Shown here: positions 9,986 to 61,731 of the stretch, one piece after another
Layout of the letters: each line of letters opens with the position of its first letter
Position numbering within the stretch: the first letter of the stretch is position 1
From: Winslowiella toletana
GTDB lineage: Bacteria > Pseudomonadota > Gammaproteobacteria > Enterobacterales > Enterobacteriaceae
Length of the DNA stretch: 64,000 bases
NCBI RefSeq assembly: GCF_032164335.1
Contig: NZ_CP134152.1
Span: 3,534,001-3,598,000 of the forward strand
Direction: 5' to 3'
Position numbers and translations under genes: made by a program
The notes under the pieces: generated by a model
What the model saw: only the letters and a program-made list of their open reading frames with translations
Told to the model about the DNA's origin: nothing
Database searches by the model: none

Positions 9986-11638
9986 TTATTGCACCAGCGC
10001 ACGATAGCGCTCGCGCAGGCGATGGCGCAAGCCCATCGCCGCCAGATTCAGTCCTAATACAATGCTTACCAGTAATAAAGCCGTCGCATAAACCAGCGGG
10101 CGCTCCGCTTCGGCGTTCGGACTCTGGAACGCCAGGTCGTAAATCTGGAAGCCAAGGTGCATAAATTTACGATCAAGATGCAGATAAGGGAAAATGCCGT
10201 CAATCGGCAATTCCGGTACCAGCTTCACTACCCCGACCAGCATCAGTGGCGCAGTTTCGCCAGCGGCGCGTGCCACCGCCAGAATCAGGCCGGTCAGCAT
10301 CGCCGGTAATGCCAGCGGCAAGGTGATGTGCCACAAGGTTTCCGCCCGGGTGGCGCCCAGCGCCAGCGAGCCCTGACGCAAAGCGGAAGGGATCCGCGAC
10401 AGCCCCTCTTCGGTCGCAACAATCACTACCGGTAACGTCAGCAGTGCCAGCGTTAGCGAGGCCCATAATAAGCCAGGGGTGCCAAAAGTCGGATTAGGTA
10501 GCGAAGCCGGAAAAAACAGCTGATCGAGCGTGCCGCCAATTAGCCAGACAAAAAAACCGAGGCCAAAAACGCCGTAAACAATCGACGGTACGCCAGCAAG
10601 ATTCACTACCGCAATCCGCACCAGGCGCGTTAATGCATTGCGGTCAGCATACTCATGCAGCCAGACGGCAGCGATCACGCCTAACGGCATCACCATCACC
10701 GACATCAACAGCACCATCAGCACCGTACCAAAAATCGCCGGAAACGCGCCGCCATCCGACTGATTTTCGCCCGGTGAATCGCTGATAAAATGCCAGATTT
10801 GCGTGGCGAAATGCTGCCATTTTTGCCCAGGCGTCATCGCATTCGGATACCAGGCGGCGACGATCTGCGTCAGCGGAATACGCTGCACGTTGCCACTGGC
10901 ATCACGCAACAATAGCGCGCTGCGTTCAATTTCACTGTTAAGCGACGCCAGCCGCGCCGCCAGCCGGTTAAACTGGCGCTGTAGTTCGGCCCGCCCCGCC
11001 TGATGAATCGACTGCTCCTGCGCGTCGTACTGTTTCTCTTCACGCAACTCCTGCGCCTGTAGCTGCAGAGCTTCCAGCTGAGCATTCACCTGCGCCATCT
11101 CCACGCGACGAATATGCGCCGCCTGCTCCAGTTGCAGGCGAGTTTGCTGCAGCCGCTGTTGAAGCGCAGCTTTCATATTTTGCGCCACTAAAGGCTGAGT
11201 ACCGTCGCGCAAACCGGCAAACCAGCCATAAGCGTTGCCACCCGTGCGGCGCTGCAACACGATAATCTCTTCCGGTTGCTGCCGCTGAGCGATATCGCTG
11301 GACAACAGCGTGCGAAAATCCGGCGCGGCAAAATCACGGTTGCCGGTTTTGATCAGATAACGCGTGACCGTTTCCGGTAACGACTCAGCGATGCGGCTAC
11401 CGCTATCCTGCAACTGCTGGCGGGAAACCTGGCTGCGATTCACCACCTCGCCCAGTAACTGCACGTTGCCCGCAGCAGATTGATTAAGCGTAAACAGCGT
11501 TACCGGCTGGGGCCAGAAACCGCGTAATCCTTGCCAGGCCAGTAAGCTAATCAGCAGCAAAAACGCCAGCAGGCTGAACGCCACTGCACCGGCGGTTAAC
11601 CAGCGCCAGCGGTCGTTCTTCGCCATCCACTTATTCAT
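9986..11638 (-). CDS. pstA: PstA-type phosphate ABC permease with long periplasmic coiled-coil insert
   Basis: 550 residues, nearly twice E. coli PstA (296). One membrane helix (about 13-37) is followed by about 250 residues that should be periplasmic, including a Gln/Glu/Arg-rich coiled-coil stretch (about 165-245). The permease core with five to six helices starts near residue 300. The EAA loop that docks on PstB is in [20 protein letters not shown]. The long form resembles the PstA variants of Vibrio and Pseudomonas. Its start overlaps the pstC stop by four bases. The role of the insert is unknown; contact with the binding protein or the partner insert in PstC is an inference. Confidence 0.88.
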
Positions 11639-13770
11639 CCCTGCCCCTCATGCTGACCATAGCGCTGACGCAACCGCTGGCGCACCACTTCTGCCAGCGT
11701 ATTCACCACCAGAGTAAACAACAGCAGCACCAGCGCGCTGAGGAACAGAATACGGTAATGTGCACTACCCGCCGCCGCTTCCGGCATTTCGACGGCAATA
11801 TTGGCCGACAGCGTTCGCAAACCGTGGAACAAACCGCCATCGGTAACTGGCGTATTGCCGGTCGCCATTAGCACAATCATGGTTTCCCCCACCGCGCGAC
11901 CAAAACCGATCATCAGCGCGGCGAAAATACCTGCCGATGCGCCGGGTAACACCACGCGTGACAAGGTTTGCCATGGCGTGGCACCCAGCGCCAGTGAACC
12001 TTGCCCCAACGAGGCGGGAACGCTAAAAATTGCATCTTCTGCCAGGGTAAAAATCAGCGGCACCAGCGCAAATCCCATCGCCACGCCAGCAACCAGCAAA
12101 TTGCGCTGCTCATAGCCGTGCGCCAGACGTTCTGCCAGCCCGCGGCTAAACAGCCAGCCGTCCAGTAAGGGCACCAGCCACAGCGTCAGCAGGCTGACCA
12201 ATAGCAACAGCGGCACCAGTATCCACACCTCACGGCCATCGGCACACAGCCGATGTCGCCAGCGCGGCGGCAAGCGGCTTGAGCCCCAGCCACAGAGCAA
12301 CAGCGTCGCGGCCAGCACAAACGGCAGCAGCAGCACGCCGGACAGATGATCGGCAATGCGTGGAGCCAGCCACAGCCCGGCAATCAGGCCCACCACCACG
12401 CTGGGTAGCGCGCCCATCATTTCGATAGCCGGTTTCACCCAGCGCCGCAGCGCGGGTGACATAAACCAGGCGGTATAAATTGCAGCAGCCAGCGCCAGCG
12501 GCGTGGCGAACAGCAGCGCCAACGCGGCGGCTTTTAGCGTGCCGGATACCATCGGCACCAGACTGAATTTTCCCTGGTAGTAATCTTCAGCCGCCGTCGA
12601 TTGCCATACCCACGCCGGCTGCGGATAGTTTTCATACCAGACTTTCTGCCACAGACTGCGCCAGCTAAAATCCGGCAAAGGATTGTGCAAGCTGAAGTAG
12701 CGCCACTCACCCTGACTTTCCACCAGCAGTCCATTCCCCTGTGGTGCAAACTCGGCGGCAGTAATCCCGGCAGGCAGCGAATGCGAGAAAATCGCGCCGT
12801 CCTGTTTACTGGCAAATAGCGTAAGCTGGCCTTGCGGGCTGAGGGTGGCGAACACCCGGCGATGAGTTTCACTGAAGAACAGCGGTTGCGCCTTAGCGCC
12901 GGTAAAATTGCGGATAAAGTTAAGATGCGGACCTGTAGGGCTGGCGATATCAAACCATTGCGCAATGCCGGATGGCCCGGCAAGCAACAACGAGTCACCG
13001 CCGCTTAATAGCAGCATTTCCTGCGGTTTTTCCTGCAGCGTGATGGTATCGCGCAGGGTAATATTGTCCGCCGTAATGCGCCAGACGCGCAGCAGATTAT
13101 CTGCCAGCGCAAACAGCAGCTTTCCATCTGGCGTCAGCAGCAGCTGATCTGTCCCTGCCTGATTGATGGTCTGAATTTGCGGCGTCTGGTTGGGCTGTAG
13201 CCGTGCCAGCTCAATGGTATTATCGCTGGCGGCGGCAAACAGCCAGCGATCGTCTGCGGGATGCGCGACGGCGGGATGACGCAAAGACCGTGCTGAAATC
13301 GCCAGCGCGCGGTCGCCGAGCGGAAATTTCCAGCGTGGCTCACCCTCGCTGGCGGTAAAATCGGCGGTTATTAATTTAATACTGCCATCAGGCTGTAACA
13401 ATGCCACCGCAGATTTATCGGCGGTAACCGCCGCCTGAACCGGGCCAGTGGCCAGCTGCAGTGCCGGTTCAGCCGGCTCGCCGCTGAGCGGAATAAAACG
13501 GGCGCTGCCATGCTGATCGATACGCCAGCCCCACTTGCCATTCAGGCCAATCGCCACCGCAGGTTGCGGTTGCCATAAAGCAAAGTGGCTGACTTGCTGG
13601 AGTGAAGGCGCAGTAAACAGCGGCGTCACTACCCAGATTAACCAGAAAAACAGCAGCATCATGACCAGCAGGATACCGACGCCACAGGCCGTGACCACGC
13701 GATGCGTCAGCCGGTCGATAAATCGCCGCCTTGAGTCGCTGTATTGCACCGGAATATGGTTGTCGATCAT
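11635..13770 (-). CDS. pstC: PstC-type phosphate ABC permease with beta-propeller-like periplasmic domain
   Basis: 711 residues against 319 for E. coli PstC. An N-terminal membrane helix (about 27-51) is followed by some 330 residues (about 60-385) made of short repeated beta-rich units with propeller-like signatures such as LTPDGKLLFALADNLLRVWRI and FAPQGNGLLVES. Six membrane segments and the EAA loop [16 protein letters not shown] complete the permease. It is first in pstCAB and divergent from ppk, so phosphate uptake and polyphosphate synthesis share a control region. I saw no convincing Pho box in that 154-base gap. Similar large PstC proteins occur beside ppk in Vibrio. The propeller assignment is from pattern only. 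Confidence 0.87.
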   Translation of the reverse strand: MIDNHIPVQYSDSRRRFIDRLTHRVVTACGVGILLVMMLLFFWLIWVVTPLFTAPSLQQVSHFALWQPQPAVAIGLNGKWGWRIDQHGSARFIPLSGEPAEPALQLATGPVQAAVTADKSAVALLQPDGSIKLITADFTASEGEPRWKFPLGDRALAISARSLRHPAVAHPADDRWLFAAASDNTIELARLQPNQTPQIQTINQAGTDQLLLTPDGKLLFALADNLLRVWRITADNITLRDTITLQEKPQEMLLLSGGDSLLLAGPSGIAQWFDIASPTGPHLNFIRNFTGAKAQPLFFSETHRRVFATLSPQGQLTLFASKQDGAIFSHSLPAGITAAEFAPQGNGLLVESQGEWRYFSLHNPLPDFSWRSLWQKVWYENYPQPAWVWQSTAAEDYYQGKFSLVPMVSGTLKAAALALLFATPLALAAAIYTAWFMSPALRRWVKPAIEMMGALPSVVVGLIAGLWLAPRIADHLSGVLLLPFVLAATLLLCGWGSSRLPPRWRHRLCADGREVWILVPLLLLVSLLTLWLVPLLDGWLFSRGLAERLAHGYEQRNLLVAGVAMGFALVPLIFTLAEDAIFSVPASLGQGSLALGATPWQTLSRVVLPGASAGIFAALMIGFGRAVGETMIVLMATGNTPVTDGGLFHGLRTLSANIAVEMPEAAAGSAHYRILFLSALVLLLFTLVVNTLAEVVRQRLRQRYGQHEGQG

Positions 13771-57421: not shown

Positions 57422-58708
57422 TTATTTTAATAACAGGTTAGCGATGGTGCGCACGCCTAAGCCGGTTGCGCCAGCAGACCATTGATCCACCGCTCCTTTG
57501 CGATAGGTCGCGGAGCAGTCAATATGCAGCCAGCCTTTCTGATAGTTTTTCACAAAGTATGACAGGAAAGCAGCAGCAGAGCTGGCACCCGCGGCATGAG
57601 CCGGACTGGCAATATTGTTCAGATCGGCAAAATTTGACGGCAGATGGCTGCGATGGAACTCAGCCAGCGGCAGACGCCAGAATGGTTCATTCTCACTGGC
57701 CGCGCTTTCCATCAACTGTTGCGCCAGCTGGTCGTCAAAGCTGAATAAAGCGTGATAGTCGTTGCCCAGCGCCGTTTTCGCTGCGCCGGTCAGCGTCGCT
57801 GCATCGATTAACAGTTCAGGATTCTGTTCGCTGGCATCAATCAGGCCATCCGCCAGTACCAGACGCCCTTCGGCATCGGTATTCATCACTTCAACCGTCT
57901 TACCATTGCGGTAACGAATAATATCGCCCAGTTTGAACGCATTACCGCTGACCATATTTTCTGCACAGCAGAGATACAGTTTCACGCGCTTTTTCAGTCC
58001 ACGGGAAATCGCCAGTGCCAGTGCGCCAGTTACCGTTGCGGCACCGCCCATATCAGATTTCATCGAATCCATAAAAGCGCTCTGCTTCAGGCTGTAACCA
58101 CCGGTATCAAAGGTGATGCCTTTACCTACCAGGCAGGCGAATACCGGTGCGTTTTCATCACCAGTTGGGTTGTAATCCAACGCCAGCAGCGCCGGGCTAC
58201 GCTGTGAGCCGCGCCCAACGGTATGAATACCCATATACTTCTGCTCGCGCAGATCGTCGCCTTTGGTAATGCGGTAGCTTACTGCGTCACCGCCAACGTC
58301 GCTCAGCAGGTCAACCGCGCTGCGTGCCAGCGTTGACGGGCTAAGCTCTTCGGCTGGCAGGTTGATCGTATGGCGTACCCAGTCAACGATCTTCAGACGA
58401 CGATCGAACTCAGCGCGATCTTTCTCGCTCAGCTGCGCCCATTCCACGCTACGCTCGCCTTTTGGCCCACGATAGCCTTGCCAGAACGCCCAGCTTTTTT
58501 CTAAATCCCAGTCAGCGCCGCTCAGAGTGACCTGACGAATGCCCTGACCATCAATTTTGCGTGCTGCGCGCTGAATGGTCGCCAGTGGATCGTTGCCATT
58601 CAGATGAATAGTCATACCGCTGTCATTAGTGCTGAGGATCGCTTTTTCGCCCCAGCGTGCATCTGCCGCTGCCGTTGACAGTGTGATGTTCATTGCTTGT
58701 GTTGTCAT
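57422..58708 (-). CDS. pepB: PepB, peptidase B (M17 aminopeptidase)
   Basis: 428 residues (E. coli 427) from the ATG at 58708, which follows GGAG; a longer frame reaches 58771. Zinc or manganese ligands lie in [29 protein letters not shown] and the M17 signature [14 protein letters not shown]. It releases N-terminal residues in the cytoplasm. In E. coli pepB is the last gene of the extended isc cluster behind iscX. Here it follows the iscS terminator directly and so must use its own promoter. Confidence 0.97.
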
Positions 58709-58913
58709 CGCATGGCTCCTTGTTCTTTTATCGCTTAATAGGATATCGGTAAATTTTACAGCAGGCAGCACCCGTGCCGCCCTGAAGATATTTATCCAAC
58801 CAGACTAACAGGCTCGCTTACAGAATCTTTTCATTGGATGCTGCCGGACAAGCATCATACATCGCTTAGGAAATTTCGCGACTGTCAGTCCATTTCTTGT
58901 TATTTCCTCAGAT

Positions 58914-58944
58914 ATAAAAAGGGCCGTATCGTAAGATCGGCCCT
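58914..58944 (-). terminator. iscRS intrinsic terminator
   Basis: On the minus strand AGGGCCG (58944-58938) pairs with CGGCCCT (58926-58920), followed by TTTTTAT. It lies 50 bases after the iscS stop and closes the operon where iscU would be expected. Confidence 0.88.
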
Positions 58945-58994
58945 CGATAATCTGTGATTATTTACTGATCATCAGCCTGTTATCAGGCACATTC

Positions 58995-60188
58995 TCAGAG
59001 AGCGGCGCGGGAGAGTTGCCTTTCCTGCCACAGCGGCGAAAGCTCGCGCAGACGAGCGATAGATTTGCTCACCAGCACGATGGTGTAATCAATCTCTTCT
59101 TCCGTAGTAAAGCGGCCAAGCGAAAAACGAATCGAACTGTGTGCCAGCTCATCATTCAGGCCGAGGGCGCGCAACACGTAGGAAGATTCCATACTGGCAG
59201 AGGTGCAGGCTGAGCCAGAAGATACCGCAAGATCTTTTAGCGCCATAATCAGCGACTCACCTTCAACGAAGTTAAAGCTGACGTTAAGGATATTAGGCGC
59301 GCCATTTTCCAGCTCACCGTTAAGGTAAACTTCCTCGATCTGGCTGATACCATTCCACAGACGATGGCGTAAACTGCGCAGACGAGCCATTTCACTGGTC
59401 ATCTCTTCTTTCGCGATGCGATAGGCTTCGCCCATGCCGACGATCTGGTGCACTGGCAGCGTGCCGGAACGCATACCGCGCTCATGTCCACCACCGTGAA
59501 TTTGGGCTGCCAGCCGGATGCGCGGCTTGCGACGCACGTACAGCGCGCCGATACCTTTTGGTCCGTAAATTTTATGCGCAGAGAAAGACATTAAATCGAC
59601 TTTCAGCTGGTTGAGGTCGATCGGCAGTTTGCCGACGCTCTGCGTCGCATCAACGTGATACAGCACGCCACGCGCATGGCACAGTTCACCAATGGCAGCG
59701 ATATCCTGAATCACACCAATTTCATTATTAACATGCATAATTGACACCAGCACGGTATCTTCACGCATTGCGGCTTCAAGCGCTTTCAGGTCAATAAGGC
59801 CGTTACGCTGTGGCGCCAGATAAGTGACCTCGAAGCCTTCGCTTTCCAGCTGCTGGCAGGTATCCAGCACCGCTTTATGTTCTGTGGTGCAAGTGATGAT
59901 GTGCTTGCCTTTCTGCTGGTAGAAAGACGCTGCGCCTTTAATCGCCAGGTTGTCAGACTCAGTGGCACCGGAAGTAAACACGATTTCACGGGGATCTGCG
60001 CCAACCAGCTCAGCAATCTGATTACGGGCGATATCAACCGCTTCTTCAGACTGCCAGCCATAGCGGTGAGAGCGGGAAGCCGGATTACCGAAAGTACCAT
60101 CCAGAGTCAGATACTGCATCATTTTCTCGGCAACGCGCGGGTCAGCCGGGGTGGTGGCAGAGTAATCCAGATAAATCGGTAATTTCAT
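58995..60188 (-). CDS. iscS: IscS, cysteine desulfurase with altered C-terminal tail
   Basis: 397 residues (E. coli 404). PLP-dependent desulfurase that supplies sulfur for Fe-S clusters, thiamine, tRNA thiolation and other pathways. The PLP Lys is in [12 protein letters not shown] (about 206) and the persulfide Cys in [10 protein letters not shown] (about 328). Similarity to E. coli is very high up to SPLW near residue 386, after which the E. coli tail EMYKQGVDLNSIEWAHH is replaced by [10 protein letters not shown]. That tail contacts IscU in E. coli. No iscU, iscA, hscB, hscA, fdx or iscX follows; a terminator and pepB do. Confidence 0.96.
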
Positions 60189-60321
60189 TGCTCGTTAAGC
60201 TCCGTACTTCGCTTCAATATTAATAAATGCTGGTGTTATTTTTACCCTTGCCACGTCGAGGTGGCAAGGTGGGAATGCACACGGCGACCGGACAATCGCC
60301 GTTAAATCGGAAAGAACGAAA

Positions 60322-60828
60322 TTAACTGGCGAGCAAACGGGTATTAACGTTAATCGTTTCCTGCAGGCGACCGTTAGGTAAACGACGGGTATCGACGCTG
60401 TCCTGACGATCGGCGACATCAAGGATTTCCTGATTGTTCACCAGCTCAGCCAGGGTGATATTATTCAGAAAATCACTGATACGCTCGCTCAGGTCACGCC
60501 ACAGCACGTGAGTCAGACAGCGCTCACCACCCTGACACCCCTCTTTACCCTGACATTTGGTGGCATCAACCGACTCATCGACAGCGGTAATCACCGCGCC
60601 AACTGCGATAGCACCGGCATCTTTACCCAACAGATAACCGCCGCCCGGGCCACGAACGCTGGCAACCAGGCCATTTTTACGCAGGCGCGAGAACAGTTGC
60701 TCAAGATAGGAAAGCGAGATCCCCTGGCGTTCTGAAATATCCGCTAACGGCACCGGACCCTGATGAGAGTGCAGTGCAACGTCAAGCATGGCGGTAACGG
60801 CATAGCGGCCTTTAGATGTCAGTCTCAT
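60322..60828 (-). CDS. iscR: IscR, Fe-S-sensing Rrf2 family repressor
   Basis: 168 residues. An N-terminal winged helix ([16 protein letters not shown]...[15 protein letters not shown]) and the cluster ligands Cys92, Cys98, Cys104 and His107 ([17 protein letters not shown]) are all kept. With a [2Fe-2S] cluster it represses its own operon; without it, it activates suf in E. coli. iscS follows after 133 bases. The tail differs from E. coli ([18 protein letters not shown]) but this part is variable. Confidence 0.97.
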
Positions 60829-60896
60829 AGCTTTGGCAACCTCGGTTATACCCCTGTTGTTGGGGTGTTAACAAAATTTATTGAACCAAGTCTGAC

Positions 60897-60946
60897 ATTC
60901 CCGAGTGTTTTGGTCAACTATTTAACCAAGTAAATTACTCAAGTAT
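60897..60946 (-). promoter_or_regulatory. two adjacent IscR type 1-like sites at the iscR promoter
   Basis: Two 25-base elements abut at 60897-60921 and 60922-60946. Read on the minus strand each begins ATA-C/G-TTGA and has the pattern of a degenerate inverted repeat with an A/T centre, as in the IscR type 1 consensus. The segment with TAGTTGACC and ACTCGGGAATGTCAGACTTG is nearly the E. coli iscR promoter as I recall it. Confidence 0.75.
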
Positions 60947-61002: not shown

Positions 61003-61731
61003 TTATTTAATACCCTTCGTTTTTTCCAGCGATGAAAGCATACCGCGCAGAATATTTAACTCGTCACGTTCAGGACGCGCACGAGTATAAAGACGGCGCA
61101 TTTTGCTCATTACCTGGCCTGGATTGCCTTCACGAATAAAGCCACTGCCGACCATCAGCTGCTCCATATGCTGATAAAAACGCTCGAGGTCATCGACCAG
61201 CGGATACGGTGATTCGGCAAACTCAGCCTGCGCCACTTCCTGCGACTGGAGAAACGCCATTCGCACTTCATAAGCGATAATCTGCACCGCCATCGCCAGG
61301 TTCAGCGAGCTGTATTCCGGGTTAGCAGCGATGGCCACGTGGTAGTGACACTTCTGTAACTCTTCGTTGGTCAGACCTACGCGCTCCCGACCAAACACCA
61401 GCGCCACCGGTGCCTGCTGGCCTTCTTCGATACTTTTCAAACCGCACTCACGCGGATCGAGCATCGGCCACGGCAGCGAGCGTGAACGCGCGCTGGTACC
61501 GACCACCAGACGACAACCGGCGATTGCCTCATCAAAGGTGTCGACAATTTTGGCATCGCCAATCACATCACTGGCTCCGGCGGCGAGAGCAATCGCCTGA
61601 GAGTCAGGTTTTACAAGTGGATTAACCAGATAAAGGTTGGTCAGGCCCATGGTTTTCATCGCGCGCGCGACGGAGCCCATGTTACCGGTATGAGAGGTTT
61701 CAACCAGGACAATACGGATGTTCTGCAGCAT
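61003..61731 (-). CDS. trmJ: TrmJ, tRNA (Cm32/Um32) 2'-O-methyltransferase
   Basis: 242 residues (E. coli 246). SPOUT-class enzyme that methylates the ribose at position 32 of several tRNAs. Visible motifs are the N-terminal [36 protein letters not shown] and [16 protein letters not shown], which form the SAM-binding trefoil knot. It is divergent from suhB and upstream of iscR in the same direction, as in E. coli. Confidence 0.97.

Follow-up and report, generated by a model that had tools for sequence, protein, structure and literature searches.

Loss of the ISC assembly genes next to a retained iscRS pair points to SUF-based iron-sulfur cluster building in Winslowiella toletana and other Erwinia

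The iscRS genes of Winslowiella toletana (genus Erwinia in GTDB) are very probably the remnant of a deleted ISC assembly line, in a cell where SUF would be the sole general builder of Fe-S clusters, IscS would serve thiolation and IscR would be matured by SUF. Escherichia coli relies on ISC for housekeeping cluster building and on SUF under stress. The window analysed here is the whole 64,000-nucleotide stretch at C1:3534001-3598000 of a complete 5,014,558-bp genome in two contigs. Within it, the isc locus is cut down to iscR and iscS followed by pepB, all on the minus strand, as an earlier note on this DNA had described, and no functional isc gene is left beyond iscRS. The features of the locus, in window coordinates, are as follows.

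57422-58708, minus strand: pepB, right flank in the ancestral order (open reading frame and homology), which adjoins iscX in ISC-containing relatives
58791-58895, minus strand: iscX pseudogene, interrupted by two stops and lacking 26 codons (tblastn match with E=1e-11 in 500 bp)
about 58914-58946, minus strand: intrinsic terminator, probably the ancestral one between fdx and iscX, now directly 3' of iscS
58995-59030, minus strand: replaced C-terminal tail of IscS, 11 residues in place of WEMxKxGVDxNxIEWAHH; the WEM-type tail is present in ISC-containing and absent in ISC-lacking IscS sequences compared
58995-60188, minus strand: iscS, cysteine desulfurase of 397 aa, 88% identity to E. coli IscS over residues 1-388, with Cys328, Lys206 and other catalytic residues intact
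60322-60828, minus strand: iscR, Fe-S sensing regulator, 78% identity to E. coli IscR; C92, C98, C104, H107 and E43 kept in 44/44 ISC-lacking genomes
60897-60921, minus strand: promoter-proximal IscR type-1 operator, ATAGTTGACCAAAACACTCGGGAAT, 22/25 to consensus (0/2000 shuffles reach 22)
60922-60946, minus strand: second IscR type-1 operator, ATACTTGAGTAATTTACTTGGTTAA, 20/25 to consensus (5/2000 shuffles reach 20)
61003-61731, minus strand: trmJ, left flank in the ancestral order, 82% identity to E. coli TrmJ

The 286-bp gap between iscS and pepB (58709-58994) had been thought unable to hold any of the six missing genes. That is right for functional genes, but the gap does hold a decayed iscX, which reads KWTDSREIS*AMYDACP..., with two in-frame stops and 26 codons gone; its match scores 41.2 bits, where 1000 shuffles gave no more than 20.4. 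The 26-codon deletion is common to the nearest relative (G314), iscX has decayed in a different way in G311 and G322, and such fossils survive only in the clade of the window genome. The terminator noted earlier in the same gap is indeed present, and it lies between iscS and the fossil. A hairpin terminator is likewise found between fdx and iscX in ISC-containing Erwiniaceae (G320, Mixta L001 and Tatumella L017/L028), and synteny indicates that the terminator of the window is probably inherited and not new. Given this shared position, the simplest course for the deletion is one that starts at the 3' end of iscS and takes in everything through fdx. In Erwinia sp. OLFS4 (L018), a hairpin terminator is also found 3' of fdx; there (11424-12017), no iscX lies between fdx and pepB although iscU to fdx are complete, so that iscX alone can go while ISC stays.

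The rest of the genome was examined for the missing genes. A whole-genome profile search returned no match to NifU_N/IscU (PF01592), a model matched in 12/14 control genomes including E. coli, and a genome-wide search with a concatenated E. coli Isc/Suf/Nfu/Erp query gave no match to IscU, HscB, Fdx or IscX. The only IscA-like matches to this query were SufA and ErpA, and the best match to HscA in the genome scored 624 bits against a curated cut-off of 708.55, that is, a DnaK-like protein. IscU, HscA/HscB together with Fdx, and the IscU-binding tail of IscS are thus all missing, and no ISC or NIF scaffold is left. A complete and contiguous sufABCDSE operon was found at C1:2258901-2264465, about 1.3 Mb from iscRS (suf at 2.259 Mb, iscRS near C1:3.593 Mb), and csdA, csdE, nfuA and erpA were also recovered with the concatenated query. 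The genes for TusA and ThiI are present. The csdA-csdE desulfurase pair (G000:C1:3887651-3889272) adds another sulfur donor, one that might supply SUF as well.

Absence calls always rest on the assembly, which here consists of two contigs, and a misassembly or a move of the isc genes to another site would mimic a loss. We give this explanation almost no credence. Relocation within the assembled genome is ruled out by the lack of any match to IscU, HscB, Fdx or HscA anywhere in it, and the iscX fossil sits inside the junction itself. Comparison of the iscS-pepB interval among relatives further revealed the same junction among the ISC-lacking Erwinia, several of whose assemblies are complete. 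IscU is absent from 36/37 Erwinia genomes, G320 being the sole one to carry it; together with the shared junction, this excludes misassembly of the interval.

The same arrangement of iscS followed by pepB was also observed in Rouxiella, Ewingella, UBA2655 and an Enterobacterales MAG. Among 147 relatives, SufB was found in 56/56 genomes without IscU and in 23/91 with it, which supports SUF, in the earlier proposal that cluster building must use SUF or another scaffold. The loss extends to frataxin: in a 295-genome sample of the family, CyaY was detected above the cut-off in 186/202 IscU-containing genomes and in 0/93 genomes without IscU, one of which (G224) gave a match below the cut-off. In the window genome, the cyaA-dapF spacing is 432 bp with no cyaY, and no cyaY fossil was found between these two genes. 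The idea that frataxin and hscBA occur together dates from the early 2000s and has since been revisited (PMC4440780). In the genomes compared here, the unlinked cyaY is lost along with ISC inside a single genus. Sixteen IscU-containing genomes are without CyaY (G022, G141, G219 and 13 others), many of them endosymbiont-sized and a few larger than 5 Mb, so that the loss of frataxin can precede that of ISC.

How many times ISC was lost depends on the placement of G320, which keeps cyaY and whose Isc proteins group within Erwiniaceae. A tree of TrmJ, IscR and PepB placed it inside Erwinia, beside the window clade (SH-aLRT 99); the suf-operon tree placed it likewise with weaker support, and a combined tree of the isc-flank and suf genes recovered the same position (support 94/95). 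The nesting of an ISC- and CyaY-containing genome in Erwinia suggests repeated ISC losses. Rouxiella/Ewingella and a third lineage lost ISC independently. Provided that a loss is never reversed, the trees call for separate losses in the window clade, other Erwinia, UBA2655/G020, Rouxiella/Ewingella and the L039/G004/G026 lineage. An alternative is a single loss in the Erwinia ancestor, after which G320 regained isc and cyaY by transfer. AU tests do not firmly reject one clade of ISC-lacking Erwinia (p=0.065 for isc-flank genes, 0.21 for suf and 0.059 combined), but a single loss covering all ISC-lacking members including G020 is rejected (p=0.0015, combined), the best trees of two independent loci set G320 beside the window clade, and the iscX fossils are confined to that clade. 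Regain would moreover need two unlinked loci in G320, with isc restored at its original position, fdx-iscX terminator included, and with proteins of Erwiniaceae type. We regard a single loss with regain as unlikely. The iscR-iscS intergenic region of G320 (L198) measures 278 bp, more than double the ISC-containing median of 107.5 bp.

What has become of IscS was examined by comparing 44 sequences from ISC-lacking genomes with 40 from ISC-containing ones, using the residue maps of PMC2854127 and PMC3750173. In the ISC-lacking set, catalytic residues are kept at 100% and the TusA contacts W45, E49, D52 and D65 at 99%. The IscU-contacting helix 12 is kept at only 58% and the IscU-binding tail (392-404) at 3%, where the conserved sites of residues 1-378 as a whole stand at 90%. 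In the patch shared by Fdx, CyaY and IscX, R112 falls from 100% to 2%, while R220, R237, M239 and R340, which also affect ThiI binding, and G234 are kept at 93-100%. In E. coli, deletion of residues 374/376-404 abolishes or weakens IscU binding, and the single substitutions L386R or M389R do not abolish it (PMC2854127), so only the loss of the tail is diagnostic. Identity of IscS(1-378) to the E. coli protein drops in Erwinia from 0.91 to 0.81-0.88; in Rouxiella/Ewingella it stands at 0.81, compared with 0.93 in Serratia/Yersinia. IscR and TrmJ display no comparable fall in ISC-lacking lineages. The kept TusA site, the lost IscU tail, the eroded Fdx/CyaY patch and the presence of TusA and ThiI support the earlier suggestion that IscS may serve mainly thiolation. 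IscS is also an established source of sulfur for Moco and thiamine.

Two other accounts of the retained pair were weighed. IscS could still aid general Fe-S assembly by feeding SUF (for instance SufE/SufBCD) and be kept for that purpose; such a link is possible given that, in a genome of another family of the order (G357), iscR and iscS cluster with sufBCDS, an A-type carrier and sufE. The suf operon of the window genome, however, has its own sufS and sufE, and the IscS residues that are kept are those of the TusA site, which makes this account improbable. A decaying iscRS remnant with no selected function would fit the faster evolution of IscS in ISC-lacking lineages. Yet the iscRS frames are open in nearly all ISC-lacking genomes (the match in G024 has one stop codon near its end), the catalytic and TusA residues of IscS stand at 99-100%, and the IscR ligands and operators are kept in all ISC-lacking genomes examined; we consider decay without function very improbable. 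Retention of IscS for thiolation is thus the reading we adopt below.

IscR itself keeps its cluster ligands (C92, C98, C104 and H107 in all 44 sequences from ISC-lacking genomes) and its operators, a type-1 site of at least 22/25 being found at 46/46 ISC-lacking loci; both points had been made for the window alone. In E. coli, Fur represses suf, apo-IscR activates it, and SUF matures IscR poorly (PMC8593673). As IscR is a poor SUF substrate there, holo-IscR can only be predicted for a SUF-only cell; that ligands and type-1 sites have been retained in all the SUF-only genomes examined leads us to predict its maturation by SUF here. Two RyhB genes score above the Rfam gathering score in the window genome, which is without iscUA (G000:C1:2606535-2606599 and 314000-314064; L291 and L292). 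A crude complementarity scan of RyhB, its strand taken as is, against the iscR-iscS gap gave no separation from shuffles, even for E. coli.

Upstream of sufA, a type-2-like IscR site, CCCTGCAAAACAAGAGGTTGAAG, shows almost no change throughout Erwinia. The Fur box next to it, TGATAATCATTATCA, scores 13.06/14 in 18 ISC-containing genomes against 10.68/14 in 38 ISC-lacking ones (Mann-Whitney p=5e-7, in a test that treats related genomes as independent). This score was anchored on the sequence of the IscR site, the unanchored score being uninformative, and four ISC-containing promoters could not be anchored. Exceptions were seen on both sides: G020, without ISC, has a good box, and G031 and G022, with ISC, have poor ones. 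The weakened predicted Fur operator at sufA makes a regulatory rewiring plausible.

The following course of events is proposed. From an ancestral operon iscRSUA-hscBA-fdx-iscX, the deletion of a stretch that starts at the 3' end of iscS and takes in all of fdx would have spared iscRS, the former fdx-iscX terminator and a solitary iscX, which would then have decayed. The SUF operon, at its other site, would have become the only general builder of Fe-S clusters. Frataxin, which is encoded elsewhere and assists ISC, would have been lost too. IscS would be retained as the sulfur donor of TusA and ThiI in tRNA thiolation, its docking surface eroding once free of IscU, Fdx, IscX and CyaY. We infer that holo-IscR, necessarily matured by SUF, would repress iscRS via the type-1 sites and that IscR would activate suf via the conserved type-2-like site; Fur repression of suf may have weakened because suf must now run in iron-replete growth. 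For free-living Enterobacterales at large, we lean slightly towards repeated, independent deletion of ISC and frataxin with iscRS kept each time, leading to the same end state: an IscS without docking features for IscU, Fdx and CyaY, an IscR open to maturation by SUF, and a suf promoter whose control by Fur is weakened while its IscR site stays as it was.

The locus shares its trmJ-pepB position, IscR operators and iscR/iscS orthologues with the canonical enterobacterial isc operon (E. coli, G320, Mixta and Tatumella); unlike in that operon, the scaffold, carrier, chaperones, ferredoxin and IscX are deleted, a terminator lies directly 3' of iscS and the tail of IscS is replaced. In the alphaproteobacterial isc-suf operon, IscR is likewise joined with SUF in the absence of a separate ISC assembly line, but there it heads one operon, whereas here the two loci lie apart and the arrangement arose by deletion. 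In Rhodobacter sphaeroides, IscR is the first gene of this operon (PMC4618611). A joined form was also observed in G357 (L221, 736-8880), where iscR, iscS, sufB, sufC, sufD, sufS, an A-type carrier and sufE cluster on one strand, with suf where iscUA-hscBA-fdx would be, in a genome without IscU and CyaY. SUF-only bacteria, including Staphylococcus aureus and Mycobacterium tuberculosis, are common elsewhere, the dual system of E. coli type being the exception (PMC11559095). These two species likewise have SUF as their only general builder but are far from E. coli, whereas here the SUF-only state arose in a group with housekeeping ISC and left iscRS and a visible scar. Insect endosymbionts offer a further parallel, small-genome relatives with SUF and without IscU being present in the same survey; their losses accompany general genome reduction, whereas the ISC-lacking Erwinia have genomes of 3.4-5.7 Mb.

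The loss of ISC is real and genus-wide. The SUF-only state is known elsewhere; in the part of the literature covered, we found no paper on ISC loss in Erwinia and no description of such a conversion within Enterobacterales with a kept and re-specialised iscRS. Close relatives with large genomes and no ISC amount to natural mutants in which the roles of ISC, of frataxin and of the single IscS partners can be probed. It can be tested here whether SUF can mature IscR, which it does poorly in E. coli (PMC8593673); whether CyaY has a role outside ISC, where the strict co-loss argues for little or none in this group; which residues of IscS belong to which partner; and what change in suf regulation is needed once SUF is the only system. 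Should the repeated losses proposed above be true, they would amount to a repeated natural conversion of a stress system into a housekeeping system.
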